DNA of 47,376 bases from an uncultured Desulfobulbaceae bacterium (GTDB lineage Bacteria; Desulfobacterota; Desulfobulbia; Desulfobulbales; Desulfocapsaceae). Below the pieces are notes generated by a model, which was given only the letters and a program-made list of their open reading frames with translations, ran no database searches and was not told where the DNA came from. Below, one piece after another: positions 10,826 through 31,136 of this stretch. The stretch lies in NCBI GenBank assembly GCA_903887485.1, contig CAISPV010000055.1, positions 1 to 47,376 on the forward strand, read 5' to 3'. Each line of letters opens with the position of its first letter. Positions within the stretch are counted from its first letter, which is position 1. Made by a program: the position numbers and the translations under genes.

Positions 10826-11527
10826 TTATTTACCACCAACGATCGGGAAGAAGACTGTACTCTTGGTTGCCGATATGGGTGCATAATACATGACGCGCAA
10901 TCCACATACCTTCAGCGCTGAGCCTGTGGCGTTCAGTCTCGCGTGTAAGACGTAGCTCCAGTCATACGTGTCAACAGTATGAGTAAGGTTGCCGTAATTG
11001 CTTCCGGGGCCTGCCGAACCGGTGGAGGGAGCATAGACCAGATCCTCGTGGCCCGTGCCGGCCGCATTGTAGCGTGTAATCCAACCACCTATGTCGTCGG
11101 AAGCAGATGTGTCGTCGTAGTATAGACGCAATAGGACAATATTTGAGCCGTCCGGTATTTCAAGTGGAGCGACAAGGAGATACGAGGCACCTGCGGTCGC
11201 ATGAACACAGCCATTGCCATCATATGAAAGAGCCGTTATGCTGTCGACCGGTTTGAGTACCGATCCCGGAATGTGATAGAAGCTTGCAGTTGTCTGCAAC
11301 GGAACGGTCTGTGGGGTGCTTATCTGCGCTTTGGCTATCTGGTCGGGCTCGTCCAAAGGCTTGCCACGATCAGGCATTATCTTCGTCTCAGTTCCTTGCG
11401 AGCTGTTGAGTTGAACGCCAAGAGCAGCTTGCTCGCTTGCTGCCGAATGCTCACTTCTTAACAAAACGACCGAAAAAAACACGATACCAAAACAAACAAT
11501 AGAACTTTTCCTGATCGAGAGATTCAT
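10826..11527 (-). CDS. Secreted protein of unknown function
   Basis: 233 residues. A clear Sec signal peptide covers residues 1-30 (Arg/Lys at 6-7, hydrophobic core IVCFGIVFFSVVLL, likely cleavage near HSAAS). A Ser/Gln/Thr-rich linker follows, then a domain from about residue 80 rich in Tyr, Gly and short beta-strand patterns, with two cysteines (CVHATAG and KVCGLRVMYY) that could form a disulfide in the periplasm. The start has an excellent Shine-Dalgarno (AAAGGAG). I do not recognise the domain; it looks like a beta-sandwich. Both neighbouring spacers are unusually long, so it may be a later insertion. Confidence 0.75.
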   Translation of the reverse strand: MNLSIRKSSIVCFGIVFFSVVLLRSEHSAASEQAALGVQLNSSQGTETKIMPDRGKPLDEPDQIAKAQISTPQTVPLQTTASFYHIPGSVLKPVDSITALSYDGNGCVHATAGASYLLVAPLEIPDGSNIVLLRLYYDDTSASDDIGGWITRYNAAGTGHEDLVYAPSTGSAGPGSNYGNLTHTVDTYDWSYVLHARLNATGSALKVCGLRVMYYAPISATKSTVFFPIVGGK

Positions 11528-23587: not shown

Positions 23588-24853
23588 TTATAAATCAACC
23601 TTGATGGTGCCAAAAACACCATCAAAACCTGCTTTTTTGTGAACCAAATTCTGTCTGACGCGACGAACCGCCTCGGCAAGAGAGGGGAAATCCCCTGAAG
23701 CGAGATCGGCAATCGGCATTTCGGTCAGGATCGTTAATTCGGGGCCAAATTGTTGAATAAGTTGCCAATACTTACTCATAACGGTCTTTGTCCCTGGCCC
23801 CACCCCAAGAAGTTCAGCCAGGATCTCCTGGAGAGGGATCAGACTGTAAACATCAGGCGATCCTGGAGGATAGACTGGGGCCAACCGGTCAGCCAGATCA
23901 AGAACCCGGGAGAGGACACCTATGGTCAACGGCTTGCCACAGACCGGGCACAGGCCATGCAGTTCTTTGCTCTTATAGGGATCACAACAGAAATCACAAA
24001 GGCGATGTCCATCATGATGATATTTTCCTTCTTCCGGATAAAATTCAATGGTCGCGGCCAGATGGCGATGTCCGGCTGCATCGCATGGGGTTTGCAGGGC
24101 AGCCTTCATAGCAAAAAAATCAAACGTGGTATCAAAGACCGTGGCCTCACGGCCAATTTTCTCCGGTGAGTGACAATCGGAGTTTGATATAAGGCTAAAA
24201 CGGTCAAGGGCTGAAACCAGCCGATTCATTGCCGGATCAGAAGACAGGCCAGTTTCAAGAGCAAAGATATGGGACGCGAGATCGCCAAAGCACTCTTCAA
24301 CGGTATCAAATCCCGACCGTGAACCAAACAGGGAAAACCAGGGTGTCCAGATATGGGCGGGAACGAGAAACCCTTCAGGGGCGTTTTCGAGAACGATCTC
24401 CAGAAGATCATGGACATCAAGCCCCAGGATTGGCCGGCCATCTGCTGCAAGATTACCAATAACGGCCAAGGCACTCTTGATCCGTTCTGCCGATGCAAAA
24501 TCAGGGACAAAGATCAGACTATGCACCTTTCTGACCTTGCCATGACGTTTGTAGATGGAACTTATCTCAGTACTCAGAATAAAGCGAGCAGGAACGCACT
24601 CAGAGGACGGGACGCAAGGAAATGGCAAGACAGAATCGGGGAGGATCGATCCTTTCAACCGGAAAAAACCAGGTTCAGCGGGCTCCAGTGTTTCCTGGAG
24701 TTCACGAAACCATAAGGGATGGGTAAAATCTCCTGTTCCCAGGAGATGCACCCCCTTGATCTGGGACCAAGCAGCCAGAGAACGGATATGCGATCTCTGG
24801 CTGGTGGCCCGTGAATACAGGGAATGGATATGAAGATCGGCAATAAAACGCAT
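23588..24853 (-). CDS. Endonuclease Q-like PHP-domain protein
   Basis: 421 residues. The PHP domain starts DLHIHSLYS (residues 6-14), with GTGDFTHP (39-46), VPAHIWTPWFS (164-174) and SNSDCHSP (223-230) metal motifs. A zinc-finger module follows (Cys286-Cys289 and Cys302-Cys305 in LCDFCC and CPVCGKPLT), then a C-terminal helical region. This architecture is that of EndoQ, first described in Thermococcales and found in some bacteria, which cuts 5' of deaminated bases (hypoxanthine, uracil, xanthine) and AP sites. The alternative name is the TIGR00375 family. The bacterial function is not proved here. Followed by the 55-residue zinc ribbon. Confidence 0.85.
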   Translation of the reverse strand: MRFIADLHIHSLYSRATSQRSHIRSLAAWSQIKGVHLLGTGDFTHPLWFRELQETLEPAEPGFFRLKGSILPDSVLPFPCVPSSECVPARFILSTEISSIYKRHGKVRKVHSLIFVPDFASAERIKSALAVIGNLAADGRPILGLDVHDLLEIVLENAPEGFLVPAHIWTPWFSLFGSRSGFDTVEECFGDLASHIFALETGLSSDPAMNRLVSALDRFSLISNSDCHSPEKIGREATVFDTTFDFFAMKAALQTPCDAAGHRHLAATIEFYPEEGKYHHDGHRLCDFCCDPYKSKELHGLCPVCGKPLTIGVLSRVLDLADRLAPVYPPGSPDVYSLIPLQEILAELLGVGPGTKTVMSKYWQLIQQFGPELTILTEMPIADLASGDFPSLAEAVRRVRQNLVHKKAGFDGVFGTIKVDL

Positions 24854-24951: not shown

Positions 24952-25314
24952 TTATAAGTACTTGGTCTTGATATAGGAGCAAAGCATATTAAAATCATCT
25001 TCATAGATATTAAGAAATTGAACACCCAGCTTAAAGGTAGGGGCTGAAGATAATTGTTTTACCCATATCACCTTACCCATAACCTTGACATTGATATCAT
25101 CAAGGAGGACATGCAATCTCAATAGAGAGTGTAATGGATATAAATTTATTGAATAAAATGAAATTCCACCACTACTGATATCTCGGCACTTGCAGCGAAC
25201 ACTGCCCTCAATACATTGCATGTTGTCTGACAAGACTTGACTCACCTCTATATCCAGGTCAATCGGTATACGAGGATGTTGCCTGTTTTCAGAAAAGCCT
25301 GTTTTTTCTTCCAT
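24952..25314 (-). CDS. PilZ domain protein
   Basis: 120 residues, essentially a single PilZ domain. The cyclic-di-GMP motifs are both intact: RQHPR (Arg11 and Arg15, RxxxR) and DISSGG (residues 45-50, D/NxSxxG). Ligand binding is therefore expected. ATG at 25314 has a GAGGAG ribosome binding site 11 bases upstream. It lies just downstream of the CheB-like gene on the same strand, with a gap of about 97 bases. Confidence 0.9.
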   Translation of the reverse strand: MEEKTGFSENRQHPRIPIDLDIEVSQVLSDNMQCIEGSVRCKCRDISSGGISFYSINLYPLHSLLRLHVLLDDINVKVMGKVIWVKQLSSAPTFKLGVQFLNIYEDDFNMLCSYIKTKYL

Positions 25315-25411: not shown

Positions 25412-26632
25412 CTATGCCGTTACGACTTGTTTTTTATTTTGACGTCCCATCGTTTTTATCAATTCGACTATTTCTTGTTCATTGACAATCAAGGCGCCAG
25501 GATACTTGCGCATAAGCCTTTTACTCATATCTTTACAGAGACATCGGCGGAGTTCCAAGGCAATGACGGTACCATGGTGTTTACGAATTGCCTCCATCCC
25601 TTTTACACCGTCATTTTCAGATCCAGAAAGCAGGATTCCCGCAACCCGTTCTTTTAGCAGTGGCGCTATTGATGTCAATATCGTATTGAGCGCTGCTTGT
25701 TTCATGGCAGTTGGGTCCTTTGTTGCCCGAATGGTATAATGACCACTATACGGCGACAAGGTCACTCGTTCAGCACCAGAGAAGATATAACAGGATCCGC
25801 CTTCTAAGGTCAGTCCATCCTGACCTCGAACCACTGTCATAGCACTGATTGACGCAAGATAGTCCACAAAGGAAGAGACATTCTCCGGTTCATCGTGGAT
25901 AACGACAATCACAGCCACACCCATTTCAGAACCAAGAGAGGGTATGATTTGCAGGAGATTGCCATATCCGCCCTCTCCCGCGCCCATCACCACGACGTAA
26001 GAAAGACGGCGGGATCTCTCGTATGTATCTAATTTTAAATCATCACCGCAGTGACAACATTGCACACTTCCATGTGATAAATATGTTTCCATATCCACAA
26101 CATTTCTGGTTCCACATTCTTCACAAAAAACCAGATGCTGTGCGTCCTGATTCTCACATTTGCCGACTGCAGGCTGCATGGGATCAATGGGTTTGACTGA
26201 AACAGTTGATGCCTGGATTACTTTCTTGATAATCAGATCGTTATCGGCTGCCATATCACTTCCCTTAAAAAAGGAGGATTTGGCCACAAAATCAACCGCA
26301 CCATACTTGAGCGCGTCAAAAGACCTGGCTGTTCCATTCTGACTTAAACTGGAAAAGATGATGGTCGGAGTCGGGGTATGAATCATCAGATGTTGCAAGG
26401 TTGTTATCCCATCCATGATCGGCATTTCCATATCCAGAATGAGGACATCAGGCTTGAGCTTGATAATCTGCTCAAGAGTCTCTATACCATTTGCGGCATC
26501 CTCCATTACCTGAATATGTTGTATTTTTTTGAATATATCACGCAATATCCCGCGAAAAACCCAGGAATCATCGGCGATAAGGACTTTGATTAAAGAAGAT
26601 GGCGCAGTTATTTTGGTAGTGTGGTGAGTCAA
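25412..26632 (-). CDS. CheB-like response regulator with inserted zinc ribbon and degenerate esterase domain
   Basis: 406 residues, starting at a TTG preceded by AAGGAAG (6-7 bases). An N-terminal receiver domain (15-140) has phospho-acceptor Asp67 in VLILDMEMPIMDG and the lysine of the FVAKSS motif. Between the domains sits a Cys4 zinc ribbon: Cys170-Cys173 and Cys192-Cys195. A CheB methylesterase-fold domain follows (210-395). The catalytic Ser motif GASTGG is GAGEGG (217-222) here, so Ser becomes Gly219, while His246 and Asp341 are kept. The esterase is probably dead, and the protein may act as a signalling or binding module. No che genes, MCP or CheR are in the window, and a PilZ gene lies downstream. 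Confidence 0.85.
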   Translation of the reverse strand: MTHHTTKITAPSSLIKVLIADDSWVFRGILRDIFKKIQHIQVMEDAANGIETLEQIIKLKPDVLILDMEMPIMDGITTLQHLMIHTPTPTIIFSSLSQNGTARSFDALKYGAVDFVAKSSFFKGSDMAADNDLIIKKVIQASTVSVKPIDPMQPAVGKCENQDAQHLVFCEECGTRNVVDMETYLSHGSVQCCHCGDDLKLDTYERSRRLSYVVVMGAGEGGYGNLLQIIPSLGSEMGVAVIVVIHDEPENVSSFVDYLASISAMTVVRGQDGLTLEGGSCYIFSGAERVTLSPYSGHYTIRATKDPTAMKQAALNTILTSIAPLLKERVAGILLSGSENDGVKGMEAIRKHHGTVIALELRRCLCKDMSKRLMRKYPGALIVNEQEIVELIKTMGRQNKKQVVTA

Positions 26633-26715: not shown

Positions 26716-26746
26716 ATTATAACATGATTAAAAGGGAAGCTGTCAA
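26716..26746 (-). promoter_or_regulatory. Promoter of the CheB-like gene
   Basis: On the minus strand: -35 TTGACA (26741-26746), a 19-base spacer, and an extended -10 TGTTATAAT (TATAAT at 26716-26721). Both hexamers are perfect and the TGn extension compensates for the long spacer. It leaves a leader of about 78 bases before the TTG start. Confidence 0.75.
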
Positions 26747-26928: not shown

Positions 26929-27582
26929 TCAGACATAAAGGCTGTGCGTTTGGATATAATCAAGGACAGCAACCGGCACAGCCCAGGCAGCCAGCCTCTT
27001 CTCCTTGATGCCTTGACGAATATCAGAGGAGGAAATATTAACAATTGACATTGTCGGAAAAAGGGGGAAGAAAATCTTTTTCTGGAAGGATGAATGATAC
27101 CAGATTTGAGAAGATTCGTCCGGCTCATAGCCAAGCATCTTTATAAGTTCCTTCACTTCCGAAGAATCGTATCCAGCTCGGTCCAAGACCACAAAATGAG
27201 CAGCCTGGAGAACATCTCGGTATGACTTCCAGGTTGTGATATCAAGAAATGCATCTGCGCCAATGATGAAAAAAAAATCCGTGGTGCACCCGGCATGGGT
27301 ATGAAAATATTGTAAGGTGTCAATCGTATAAGACGGTTCAGGCAGACTTGCCTCTATGGTGGATAGCTTGAAATCAGGTTTTCCGGCCAAGGCCAGTTGA
27401 ATCATGTGAGCGCGATGGCTGAAACTGGCGAGCGCTTGCAGATTTTTATGAGGCGGCACAGCTGTAGGGATAAACCTGACCTCCTCCAGATCACAAAAAT
27501 CCTGGGCAATCTCGGCAATCTGGAGATGTCCATTGTGGACAGGATCAAAGGTGCCGCCCAGAAGCCCTACGCGTGGATTCAA
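26929..27582 (-). CDS. nadD: Nicotinate-nucleotide adenylyltransferase
   Basis: Adenylates nicotinate mononucleotide in NAD synthesis. 217 residues. Class I nucleotidyltransferase motif GGTFDPVHNGH (residues 9-19), VPPHK shortly after, and a C-terminal SSSDIRQGI (ISSTxxR motif). The start is a TTG that overlaps the proA stop, so translation is coupled. The order obgE-proB-proA-nadD is common in Desulfobacterota and some Firmicutes (often followed by rsfS, not seen here). Confidence 0.94.
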   Translation of the reverse strand: MNPRVGLLGGTFDPVHNGHLQIAEIAQDFCDLEEVRFIPTAVPPHKNLQALASFSHRAHMIQLALAGKPDFKLSTIEASLPEPSYTIDTLQYFHTHAGCTTDFFFIIGADAFLDITTWKSYRDVLQAAHFVVLDRAGYDSSEVKELIKMLGYEPDESSQIWYHSSFQKKIFFPLFPTMSIVNISSSDIRQGIKEKRLAAWAVPVAVLDYIQTHSLYV

Positions 27583-28847
27583 CTCCGTACCTGTCCGGCG
27601 CCATAGACGATAAATTTTTTGCTCGTCAGTTCTTCGAGTCCCATTGGGCCATAGGCGTGCAACTTCGTGGTGCTGATTCCGATCTCGGCCCCCAGGCCAA
27701 GCTGGCCACCATCGTTGAACCGAGTCGAGGCATTGACCATGACGGCTGAGGCATCCACTTCGGCCAGAAAACGCTGGGCATTGCTGTAATCTTCAGTAAT
27801 GATCACCTCGGTATGTTGTGAACCGTATTCAGCCATATAGGTCATGGCCTCATCGAGCGATCCAACGACCTTCACGCAGAGGATCAACCCCAGAAATTCA
27901 GTTCCCCAGTCACTTGGCAAGGCAGGAGTGATTGTGGAATCCAGGGCAACGCTTTCAGGGCAACCACGAAGCTCCACCCCGGCCGCACGAAGTTCTTTGG
28001 CAATGACGGGAAGATAACTGGCGGCGATGTCGCGGTGAATGAGCAGCCCCTCAAGGGCATTGCAGACACCAGGACGTTGGGTCTTCGAGTTCATGATAAT
28101 CGGTGTGGCCTTGACGAGGTCGGCAGTGCTGTCTACAAAGATATGACAGACCCCTTTGTAGTGCTTGAGTACCGGAATCCGTGAAGTCTCGCTGACAAAG
28201 CGAATCAATCCTTCGCCACCGCGCGGAATGATCAGATCGATGAATGCTTCCTGGGCCAGAAGCACGGTGACGGCTGCACGATCCGTTATCGGAACCACCT
28301 GGATGGCCGCTGGATCTATACCATGGGCGGCGAGGACTCCCTGTAAAACTTCAGCCAGGGCCAGATTGGAATGAATGGCCTCGGAGCCGCCCCTTAAGAT
28401 AATGGCATTACCGGCCTTCAGGCAAAGCGCCGCTGCATCGACGGTCACATTGGGACGGGATTCATAAATCATCCCGATCACCCCCAGGGGTATCCGCATC
28501 CTCCCCACCATCAAGCCATTGGGTCTTTTGGTGAGATTCAGGATCTCACCCACGGGATCAGGCAAGGCGACAACTTCTCGCAGACCGGCAATCATTGAGG
28601 CCATCACCTTATCTGACAGCTCCAGGCGGTCCAACATAGCCGCGGACAGCCCTTTCTGTTTCCCTGCCGCCAGATCTTTCTGGTTTTCCTGCTGGATAAA
28701 TGGCCGTTTTTCTTCCAAGGCCTCAGCCATCTGCCGGAGAAGGGTATTTTTGGTCTCAGTGGATAAAGAGATCAGGCTGCGGGCCGCCTTTTTCGCCTTT
28801 TGGGCCATTATGCGGATGCTCTTCTCAATTTCTTGATTGTGTGACAT
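27579..28847 (-). CDS. proA: Gamma-glutamyl phosphate reductase
   Basis: NADPH-dependent reduction of glutamyl-5-phosphate to the semialdehyde in proline synthesis. 422 residues, standard length. The aldehyde dehydrogenase-fold motif VGRMRIPLGVIGMIYESRP and the cysteine in MNSKTQRPGVCNALEG (catalytic Cys) are present, as is FNDGGQLGLGAEIGIST near the C-terminus. It lies 14 bases after proB and overlaps nadD by 4 bases. Confidence 0.97.
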   Translation of the reverse strand: MSHNQEIEKSIRIMAQKAKKAARSLISLSTETKNTLLRQMAEALEEKRPFIQQENQKDLAAGKQKGLSAAMLDRLELSDKVMASMIAGLREVVALPDPVGEILNLTKRPNGLMVGRMRIPLGVIGMIYESRPNVTVDAAALCLKAGNAIILRGGSEAIHSNLALAEVLQGVLAAHGIDPAAIQVVPITDRAAVTVLLAQEAFIDLIIPRGGEGLIRFVSETSRIPVLKHYKGVCHIFVDSTADLVKATPIIMNSKTQRPGVCNALEGLLIHRDIAASYLPVIAKELRAAGVELRGCPESVALDSTITPALPSDWGTEFLGLILCVKVVGSLDEAMTYMAEYGSQHTEVIITEDYSNAQRFLAEVDASAVMVNASTRFNDGGQLGLGAEIGISTTKLHAYGPMGLEELTSKKFIVYGAGQVRS

Positions 28848-28861
28848 TTTTTATTATACTC

Positions 28862-30019
28862 CTACAAGAGAACCAGATTATCCCGATGGATAACTTCATC
28901 GCAATCCTTAAAGCCAAGCAGGGACTCAATCACATCAGAATGATGGCCCTTGATGATATCCAGATTGACCGAGCTGTAATTCACCAGTCCCGCCGCGATG
29001 GGCTGATTGTTGCTGTCAAGACAATGGACAGCCTCCCCTACCCCGAACTCACCTCGGACCTCAAGGATACCGGAAGAAAGAAGGCTTTTTCCATGTTGAC
29101 AAAGGGCCGTGCAGGCTCCGGTATCAAGGACTAAATATCCTTTAGGGCGGAGCACATAGGCTATCCAGTGTTTTCGGCGCTGGATTTTGTCTTCGGCCGG
29201 GAGAAAGAAGGTGCCGATCATCTCCCCGCTGAATAATTTTTGCAAGATAGTGCTTTCGCGACCAGGCCCGATAAAAGAGCTGCCGCCACCCGCTGCCACC
29301 ATCTTGGCGGCGCGAATCTTCGATTGCATACCGCCGGTGCCAAGGGTGCTTTTCACATTGCCAGCCATGGCCTCAATCTCCGGGGTAACGCGGGCCACGG
29401 TATAAACAGGGCGGGCCGAGGGGTCAGACAGAGGGTTGCCGGTATAAAGACAGTCGACATCAGTGAGACAGATAAACATATCGGCCTCGATGAGATTGGT
29501 AATCAGGGCCCCAAGGGTATCATTGTCCCCAAAACGGAGCTCTTCGCCGGAGACAGGATCGTTTTCGTTGATAATGGGAATGGCCCCAAAACGGAACAGG
29601 GTGAGGATGGTATTGCGGACATTGAGATACCGATCCCGGCTGGCAAGATCGGCGTGGGTCAAAAGGAGTTGACTGATGATTTTGCCATGGCGTTGAAAGG
29701 CCTCGTCATAGGTCTGCATCAGACAGGACTGACCAATGGCGGCCAAGGCCTGTTTTTCCTTGAGGCCGACCTTCAGGGTATCACTGAGGACAATTTTTTT
29801 TCTGCCGGCGGCTACAGCCCCGGAGGTAACGAGAATAACCTCACGTCCGCTGTCCTTGAGGAAAGACAATTCCCGGGCAATATTTTCCACCACATTCTGA
29901 TTGATGCCCGACTCGGTGGTGAGGACGGCGCTGCCAACCTTGATAACAATACGTTTGGCCTTATCAAAAAGAGTCTGACGATAGTAAAGGCCATCCTCTC
30001 TGCTTATCTGAGTGGTCAT
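28862..30019 (-). CDS. proB: Glutamate 5-kinase (with PUA domain)
   Basis: Phosphorylates glutamate, the first and proline-inhibited step. 385 residues: an amino-acid kinase domain with IVIKVGSAVLT (residues 24-34), VTSGAVAAG and FGDNDTLGALI, plus a C-terminal PUA domain (about 290-370) as in long-form ProB. An N-terminal extension of about 20 residues precedes the kinase core. Operon with proA (14-base gap); obgE ends 55 bases upstream. Confidence 0.97.
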   Translation of the reverse strand: MTTQISREDGLYYRQTLFDKAKRIVIKVGSAVLTTESGINQNVVENIARELSFLKDSGREVILVTSGAVAAGRKKIVLSDTLKVGLKEKQALAAIGQSCLMQTYDEAFQRHGKIISQLLLTHADLASRDRYLNVRNTILTLFRFGAIPIINENDPVSGEELRFGDNDTLGALITNLIEADMFICLTDVDCLYTGNPLSDPSARPVYTVARVTPEIEAMAGNVKSTLGTGGMQSKIRAAKMVAAGGGSSFIGPGRESTILQKLFSGEMIGTFFLPAEDKIQRRKHWIAYVLRPKGYLVLDTGACTALCQHGKSLLSSGILEVRGEFGVGEAVHCLDSNNQPIAAGLVNYSSVNLDIIKGHHSDVIESLLGFKDCDEVIHRDNLVLL

Positions 30020-30074
30020 AATTAGATATAATCAAATAAACTCAATATGTTATTCGATGTTGTCGTTGCAGGAA

Positions 30075-31136
<1,062 letters not shown>

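Follow-up and report, generated by a model that had tools for sequence, protein, structure and literature searches.

The window, i.e., the whole stretch of 47,376 nucleotides of Desulfocapsaceae DNA that was analysed, encodes a response regulator that we read, with a probability of roughly 0.7, as a pseudoenzyme derived from CheB: a phosphorylation-controlled binder in which a four-cysteine ribbon would serve in structure or docking. CheB itself, the standard example of a response regulator with an enzymatic output, has its C-terminal domain released by phosphorylation. The open reading frame runs from 26632 to 25412 on the minus strand, as do all features of the protein given below, starts with TTG and encodes 406 amino acids; the plus-strand reading of 25412–26632 is broken by many stops. 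Pfam analysis identified a response-regulator receiver (PF00072, residues 17–119, E=8e-19) followed by a CheB methylesterase domain (PF01339, residues 214–390, E=3e-28). The receiver domain, which we place at residues 15–142 (26207–26590) with the aid of the predicted model, contains the residues checked for this fold (D21/D22, D67 and K118), including the phospho-acceptor Asp67 (26432–26434). The degenerate methylesterase-fold domain spans residues 212–392 (25457–25999), and its GAGEGG motif begins at residue 217, so that Gly219 (25976–25978) replaces the serine of the GASTGG motif of CheB. The other two triad positions are occupied by His246 (25895–25897) and Asp341 (25610–25612), and the domain also contains Cys281 (25790–25792) and Cys364 (25541–25543). 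A zinc-ribbon insert (residues 165–205; 26018–26140) with Cys170, Cys173, Cys192 and Cys195 in a CxxC-x18-CxxC spacing lies between the two domains. An earlier note, made from the letters of the DNA, had described a CheB-like frame at 25412–26632 with an intact receiver, a lost esterase nucleophile and a Cys4 ribbon at these four positions, and each of these descriptions proved correct.

The AlphaFold2 model, built from a 60-row alignment, reached a pLDDT of 87.4 and a pTM of 0.83. When the model was compared using Foldseek, the top matches were CheB structures, including 6ymz (E 2.4e-27) and 1a2o, and among the catalytic domains 3sft aligned with a TMt of 0.92 (rmsd 1.8) and 1chd with a TMt of 0.85; across all four structures TMt ranged from 0.73 to 0.92. 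The predicted fold of the C-terminal domain is therefore that of CheB. The window protein shares with these proteins the receiver residues and the order of receiver followed by CheB-fold domain, but differs from them in the glycine at the serine position, a histidine that is not conserved, the linker ribbon, Cys281, and a genome in which the chemosensory core was not found.

The ribbon gave no match above the cut-off with the generic Pfam ribbon models, and a sequence search for a solved structure returned nothing significant (best E 0.72). Profile comparison using hhalign aligned it with the N-terminal ribbons of eight related regulators (probability 98.2 over 37 columns). The same CxxC...CxxC pattern is found in the zinc-ribbon domains PF13717 and PF13719, which match the relatives with N-terminal ribbons below the cut-off and an ATPase of locus L180 above it; unlike these domains, the ribbon of the window protein is internal, in the order receiver, ribbon, output domain. 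Judging by its cysteine pattern, the ribbon most likely binds zinc.

Based on homology searches, the protein is widespread among related bacteria. A search with the single protein as query hit 39 of 58 related genomes (E≤1e-20), in the weakest case over the receiver only, and with a profile, matches at E≤1e-40 were detected in 76 of the 93 genomes of the window's family, some of them fragments at contig edges. The named orthologue carriers are Desulfocapsa, Desulfofustis, Desulforhopalus, Desulfopila and their kin, i.e., Desulfocapsaceae within Desulfobulbales. The gene is dispensable, since the profile search returned no match in 17 of the 93 genomes, seven of which are at least 90% complete. 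Conservation was scored in an alignment of the window protein and 60 loci, which included the truncated L052 and was made without the fragments L053, L097 and L109, the row L111 and the eight rows with an N-terminal ribbon; five weak matches among 77 loci (L113–L117) were left out of the locus comparison, the gene-context and the PilZ counts. The four ribbon cysteines and Gly219 are invariant (61/61 each), and Asp67 and Lys118 are each kept in 60 of the 61 rows. His246 is present in 29 rows, Asp341 in 53 and both jointly in 27, and with Gly219 in every row, none of the 61 has the Ser-His-Asp triad of CheB. The statement that His and Asp remain thus holds for the window and its genus, where both are present in 14 of 14 sequences, which accounts for the earlier impression, but not for the family. 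A survey of homologues for a conserved loss of serine and conserved Cys4 had been proposed; both are conserved, and no orthologue with an active GASTGG motif and without the cysteines was found among the 61. Two single rows deviate in the receiver: L106 retains the ribbon and has lost the Asp residues of its receiver, and L111 retains Asp67 in an otherwise atypical receiver.

Upstream of the gene and on the same strand lies an obgE-proB-proA-nadD block (26929–31133; gene names assigned by eye). Of 72 loci, 56 have a nadD match upstream in the same orientation, mostly with proA, proB and obgE in the same order, although it lies nearly 4 kb away in two of them (L049 and L109). Eight of the 16 loci that lack an upstream nadD are those with N-terminal ribbons, and several have only short upstream sequence. 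We considered whether the protein is a decaying relic retained solely through its position beside this block, a view to which the absence of a match from 17 of the 93 family genomes and the receiver of L106 without its Asp residues lend something. Nei–Gojobori analysis of 12 genus sequences (66 pairs) gave median dN/dS values of 0.054 for the receiver, 0.135 for the degenerate CheB domain, 0.234 for the ribbon and 0.288 for the linker, excluding pairs with saturated dS (21, 8, 13 and 10 of the 66, respectively), and the receiver is thus the most constrained part of the protein. The low ratios of the two large domains, the invariant ribbon cysteines and the detection of the protein, partly as fragments at contig edges, in 76 of the family's 93 genomes make the decaying relic very unlikely. 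The protein is maintained under purifying selection and the loss of the serine is fixed in the family.

The earlier note had found no chemotaxis genes nearby, and this extends to the entire genome for three markers: in the window's genome, which is 97.7% complete, matches to the CheA dimerization domain (PF02895), CheW and MCP are all absent. Two CheR matches and a second CheB do exist there. The latter (L182, 9224–9861 of G000:C81) is without a receiver, lies in two overlapping frames and adjoins an ORF that resembles CheR by eye, in this same genome without MCP, CheW or CheA-dimer matches. PF02895 is present in most genus relatives and absent from 16 of the 76 family genomes that carry the protein. 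Eleven of these 16 were searched for CheW and MCP; ten have neither, eight of them being at least 90% complete. CheR remains in some of the genomes without CheW and MCP (G025, G018 and G191; the copy of our protein in G018 is a fragment). The one exception, G019, and the CheA-positive controls G021 and G036 have both CheW and MCP, and PF02895 was accordingly rejected as a sole chemosensory marker. The CheB-like protein thus persists where the chemosensory core was not found.

These results bear on one alternative, an ordinary CheB methylesterase that serves chemoreceptors from outside a chemotaxis locus. The fold and domain order are those of CheB, CheB is also the best-ranked NCBIfam model, and matches to the CheA dimerization domain do occur in most relatives within the genus. 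However, the score against that model (NF001965) is 205.6 bits, below the curated cut-off of 293, all 61 orthologues have Gly in place of Ser, and His is lost in 32 of them. Moreover, since the window's genome has no MCP match, no receptor was found there on which an esterase could act, and CheW and CheA-dimer matches are missing as well. Taken together, we consider an ordinary esterase extremely improbable.

To place the protein among other CheB-like regulators, we used a phylum sample of 395 genomes, in which the best 30 loci and five further stretches were inspected. Many REC-CheB proteins with altered triads were present, some of them arranged in tandem and others linked to DUF4388. In a midpoint-rooted tree of 72 hand-picked rows, the window protein, 16 orthologues and L111 form an 18-row group (support 100/100) that is nested in a 37-row group (99/95), separate from the canonical GASTGG rows. 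The complete Ser-His-Asp triad is found in 14 of the 72 rows, i.e., nine canonical rows and five rows (L149–L153) of the wider group, which is thus not uniformly dead; the remaining 32 of its 37 rows are without a complete triad. Farther relatives retain the serine: the serine position in the 37 rows is occupied by Ser in 10, Ala in 9 and Gly in 18, the last being the window's family and L111. The same ribbon occurs at the N-terminus, ahead of a receiver and a degenerate CheB domain, in eight relatives, five of which carry GSSYGG (L098, L099, L100, L102 and L110) and three Ala (L101, L103 and L112), so that the loss of serine does not extend to all regulators with an N-terminal ribbon. These rows do not form one clade, and the ribbon label requires four changes on the tree.

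Could the domain retain some chemistry with another nucleophile, e.g., Cys281 or Cys364, or could the two cysteines form a redox switch? In the orthologue family Cys281 is present in 60 of 61 rows and Cys364 in all 60 rows that have a residue there, one row being truncated, and Asp341, kept in 53 of 61, could together with a conserved cysteine support another chemistry. Cys281 occurs in 35 of the 37 rows of the wider group and in 12 of 26 other non-canonical rows, as compared to none of the nine canonical CheB rows, whereas Cys364 is present in 36 of 37, 25 of 26 and 3 of 9 rows, respectively, and aligns with a cysteine of 1a2o. Only Cys281 therefore marks the group, and the two residues were rejected as a marking pair. 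Since Cys364 is as frequent in the other non-canonical rows, and with His246 in only 29 of 61 rows, we regard a cysteine-based chemistry as unlikely.

Within the 37-row group (99/95), the window protein is accompanied by regulators that we refer to as EGGY-type CheB-like regulators, a name coined in this analysis (L099, L102, L103, L110, L112, L178, L180 and L181). Both have Cys281, and a comparison of two profiles showed the degenerate CheB domains of the window's family and of the EGGY-type to be 31% identical over 179 columns. The EGGY-type regulators are encoded, where inspected, with MCP, CheW, CheY-like or CheA genes, in contrast to the window and family loci, which adjoin obgE-proBA-nadD. 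Their ribbon is N-terminal, absent or replaced by a receiver–DUF4388 extension, while that of the window protein is internal, and the serine position outside the window's family is S or A instead of Gly. Pfam analysis of the L110 neighbourhood revealed MCP, the ribbon-bearing regulator itself, CheW, a CheY-like protein and CheA; those of L103, L178, L180 and L181 contain MCP, CheW or CheA, and chemosensory genes were recognized by eye around L099, L102 and L112. No CheR was noticed in the inspected chemosensory stretches, which are partly annotated. By its sequence relationships, the window protein is a variant of the CheB-type response regulators and kin to the degenerate CheB-like regulators of chemosensory operons.

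This result bears on an earlier proposal, in which the protein may be a new kind of phosphorylation-controlled effector. The computed evidence supports a derivative of CheB that retains its receiver and has lost the CheB nucleophile, in a genome without detectable chemoreceptors; the novelty was not borne out, as the phylum sample is rich in kindred CheB-like regulators with degenerate domains. The operons of the chemosensory relatives, with CheA and CheY-like genes, and the strong constraint on the receiver would also agree with a phosphate sink, in which the receiver would merely take up phosphate from a histidine kinase, with the remainder of the protein as a scaffold. We consider such a sink improbable, given that CheA was not found in the window's genome and that a sink would need neither an invariant ribbon nor a conserved CheB-fold domain.

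The gene had also been credited with a strong promoter of its own. An exact TTGACA-N19-TATAAT is present on the minus strand at 26716–26746 (0.01 expected by chance). Of 13 genus relatives, 7 have it as well, in one case with TATGAT; it is absent from the other six, and a standard scan with 16–18 nt spacers returned no minus-strand promoter there. The predicted PilZ gene downstream was confirmed on the same strand (24952–25314; PF07238, E=2e-13), with RQHPR and DISSGG motifs. Among the 72 loci examined, nine with fewer than 700 bases downstream were set aside (L050, one of these, does show PilZ), and 15 of the 63 testable loci, among them 8 of the 10 testable ones of the genus, have a PilZ gene no more than 900 bases downstream. 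Fourteen of these 15 genes match both RxxxR and [DN]xSxxG, the motifs of PilZ domains. All 15 belong to the window's genus or to Desulfocapsa-like loci, and PilZ as a partner throughout the family was rejected.

In the window, the PilZ gene and a gene for an endonuclease Q-like protein (23588–24853, minus strand; PfuEndoQ, E=7e-46) occupy the downstream place that ung holds in the other genera tested. An ung-like ORF lies downstream in five of eight listed loci and was confirmed in L060, and ung was at the adjacent position in all six genomes tested outside the genus. An exchange of ung for the endonuclease Q-like gene in the genus was rejected, as ung is located elsewhere in seven of the eight genus genomes tested, including the window's; the eighth, G014, had none. 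Elsewhere in the window, a 233-residue ORF (10826–11527, minus strand) has no Pfam or NCBIfam match.

A regulator from another locus of the same family (L181) combines ribbon, receiver, degenerate CheB domain and PilZ in one chain, and among 252 genomes of the class, full-length matches to this arrangement were detected in 3, which represent three families. The fusions (L181, L184 and L185) have the same four building blocks as the two adjacent genes of the window, but are distant paralogues on the tree, form a single chain and have the ribbon at the N-terminus, and L181 lies near a CheA gene. Since they are distant paralogues, the fusions demonstrate that cooperation among the four modules is possible, but do not demonstrate it for the two genes of the window. 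Besides CheA, the L181 stretch (G031:C74:1-17000) also encodes two further regulators of the CheB-like type, a PilZ protein of its own, a MinD-like ATPase with a ribbon, and an NMT1-like protein; across the clusters of L181 and L180 (G152:C38:5000-21804) we observed CheA, several degenerate CheB-like regulators, DUF4388, a zinc-ribbon MinD/ParA-like ATPase, PilZ and an NMT1-type transporter. The window's genome has 21 GGDEF matches, which makes c-di-GMP signalling plausible there. The suggested link of the protein to c-di-GMP thus gains from the PilZ neighbours and the fusions, while the adjacency is restricted to certain lineages and the fusions are distant. A PilZ link in two lineages, i.e., the window's genus and some Desulfocapsa-like relatives, is plausible, and the PilZ protein as a partner of the window protein is speculative.

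For the phosphorylation-controlled binder, we infer phosphorylation, zinc binding, opening and partner binding. A histidine kinase or a small-molecule phosphodonor would phosphorylate Asp67, and the phosphorylated receiver would open against the C-terminal CheB-fold domain, as in CheB. Because this domain is without the CheB serine, the opened protein would act by binding a partner rather than by hydrolysis. The linker ribbon, likely zinc-bound, may be a rigid hinge or a docking surface, and in the window's genus and some Desulfocapsa-like relatives the adjacent PilZ protein, and hence c-di-GMP, may belong to the partner's pathway. One CheB study reports that CheB with a phospho-mimic and a Ser-to-Ala change binds its receptor with an equilibrium constant unaltered within error (PMC8609364); a CheB without the serine is therefore expected to be a phosphorylation-controlled binder. 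Elsewhere, two proteins are named CheB in the genome description of Desulfocapsa sulfexigens (PMC3739170), and an archaeal census includes REC-CheB and mentions a zinc ribbon for another domain (PMC5847659). Titles and abstracts among the matches listed from the open-access literature contained no CheB without serine, no CheB with a zinc ribbon and no CheB with DUF4388, which is weak evidence of absence.

A bolder reading, which we regard as possible but doubtful, is that CheB was domesticated across most of the family into a dead zinc-ribbon phospho-switch outside chemotaxis that relays a histidine-kinase signal via PilZ to c-di-GMP, and that it belongs, as a single branch, to a phylum-wide diversification of degenerate CheB regulators. 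If so, some members of that diversification sit in operons with CheA, PilZ, a MinD-like ATPase that carries a ribbon, and a transporter of the NMT1 type. With the catalytic serine gone and the receiver and fold under purifying selection, the family would offer a clean system for non-hydrolytic roles of the CheB fold. Given the many altered triads in the phylum sample, automatic naming as "CheB methylesterase" may mislead for many such proteins.
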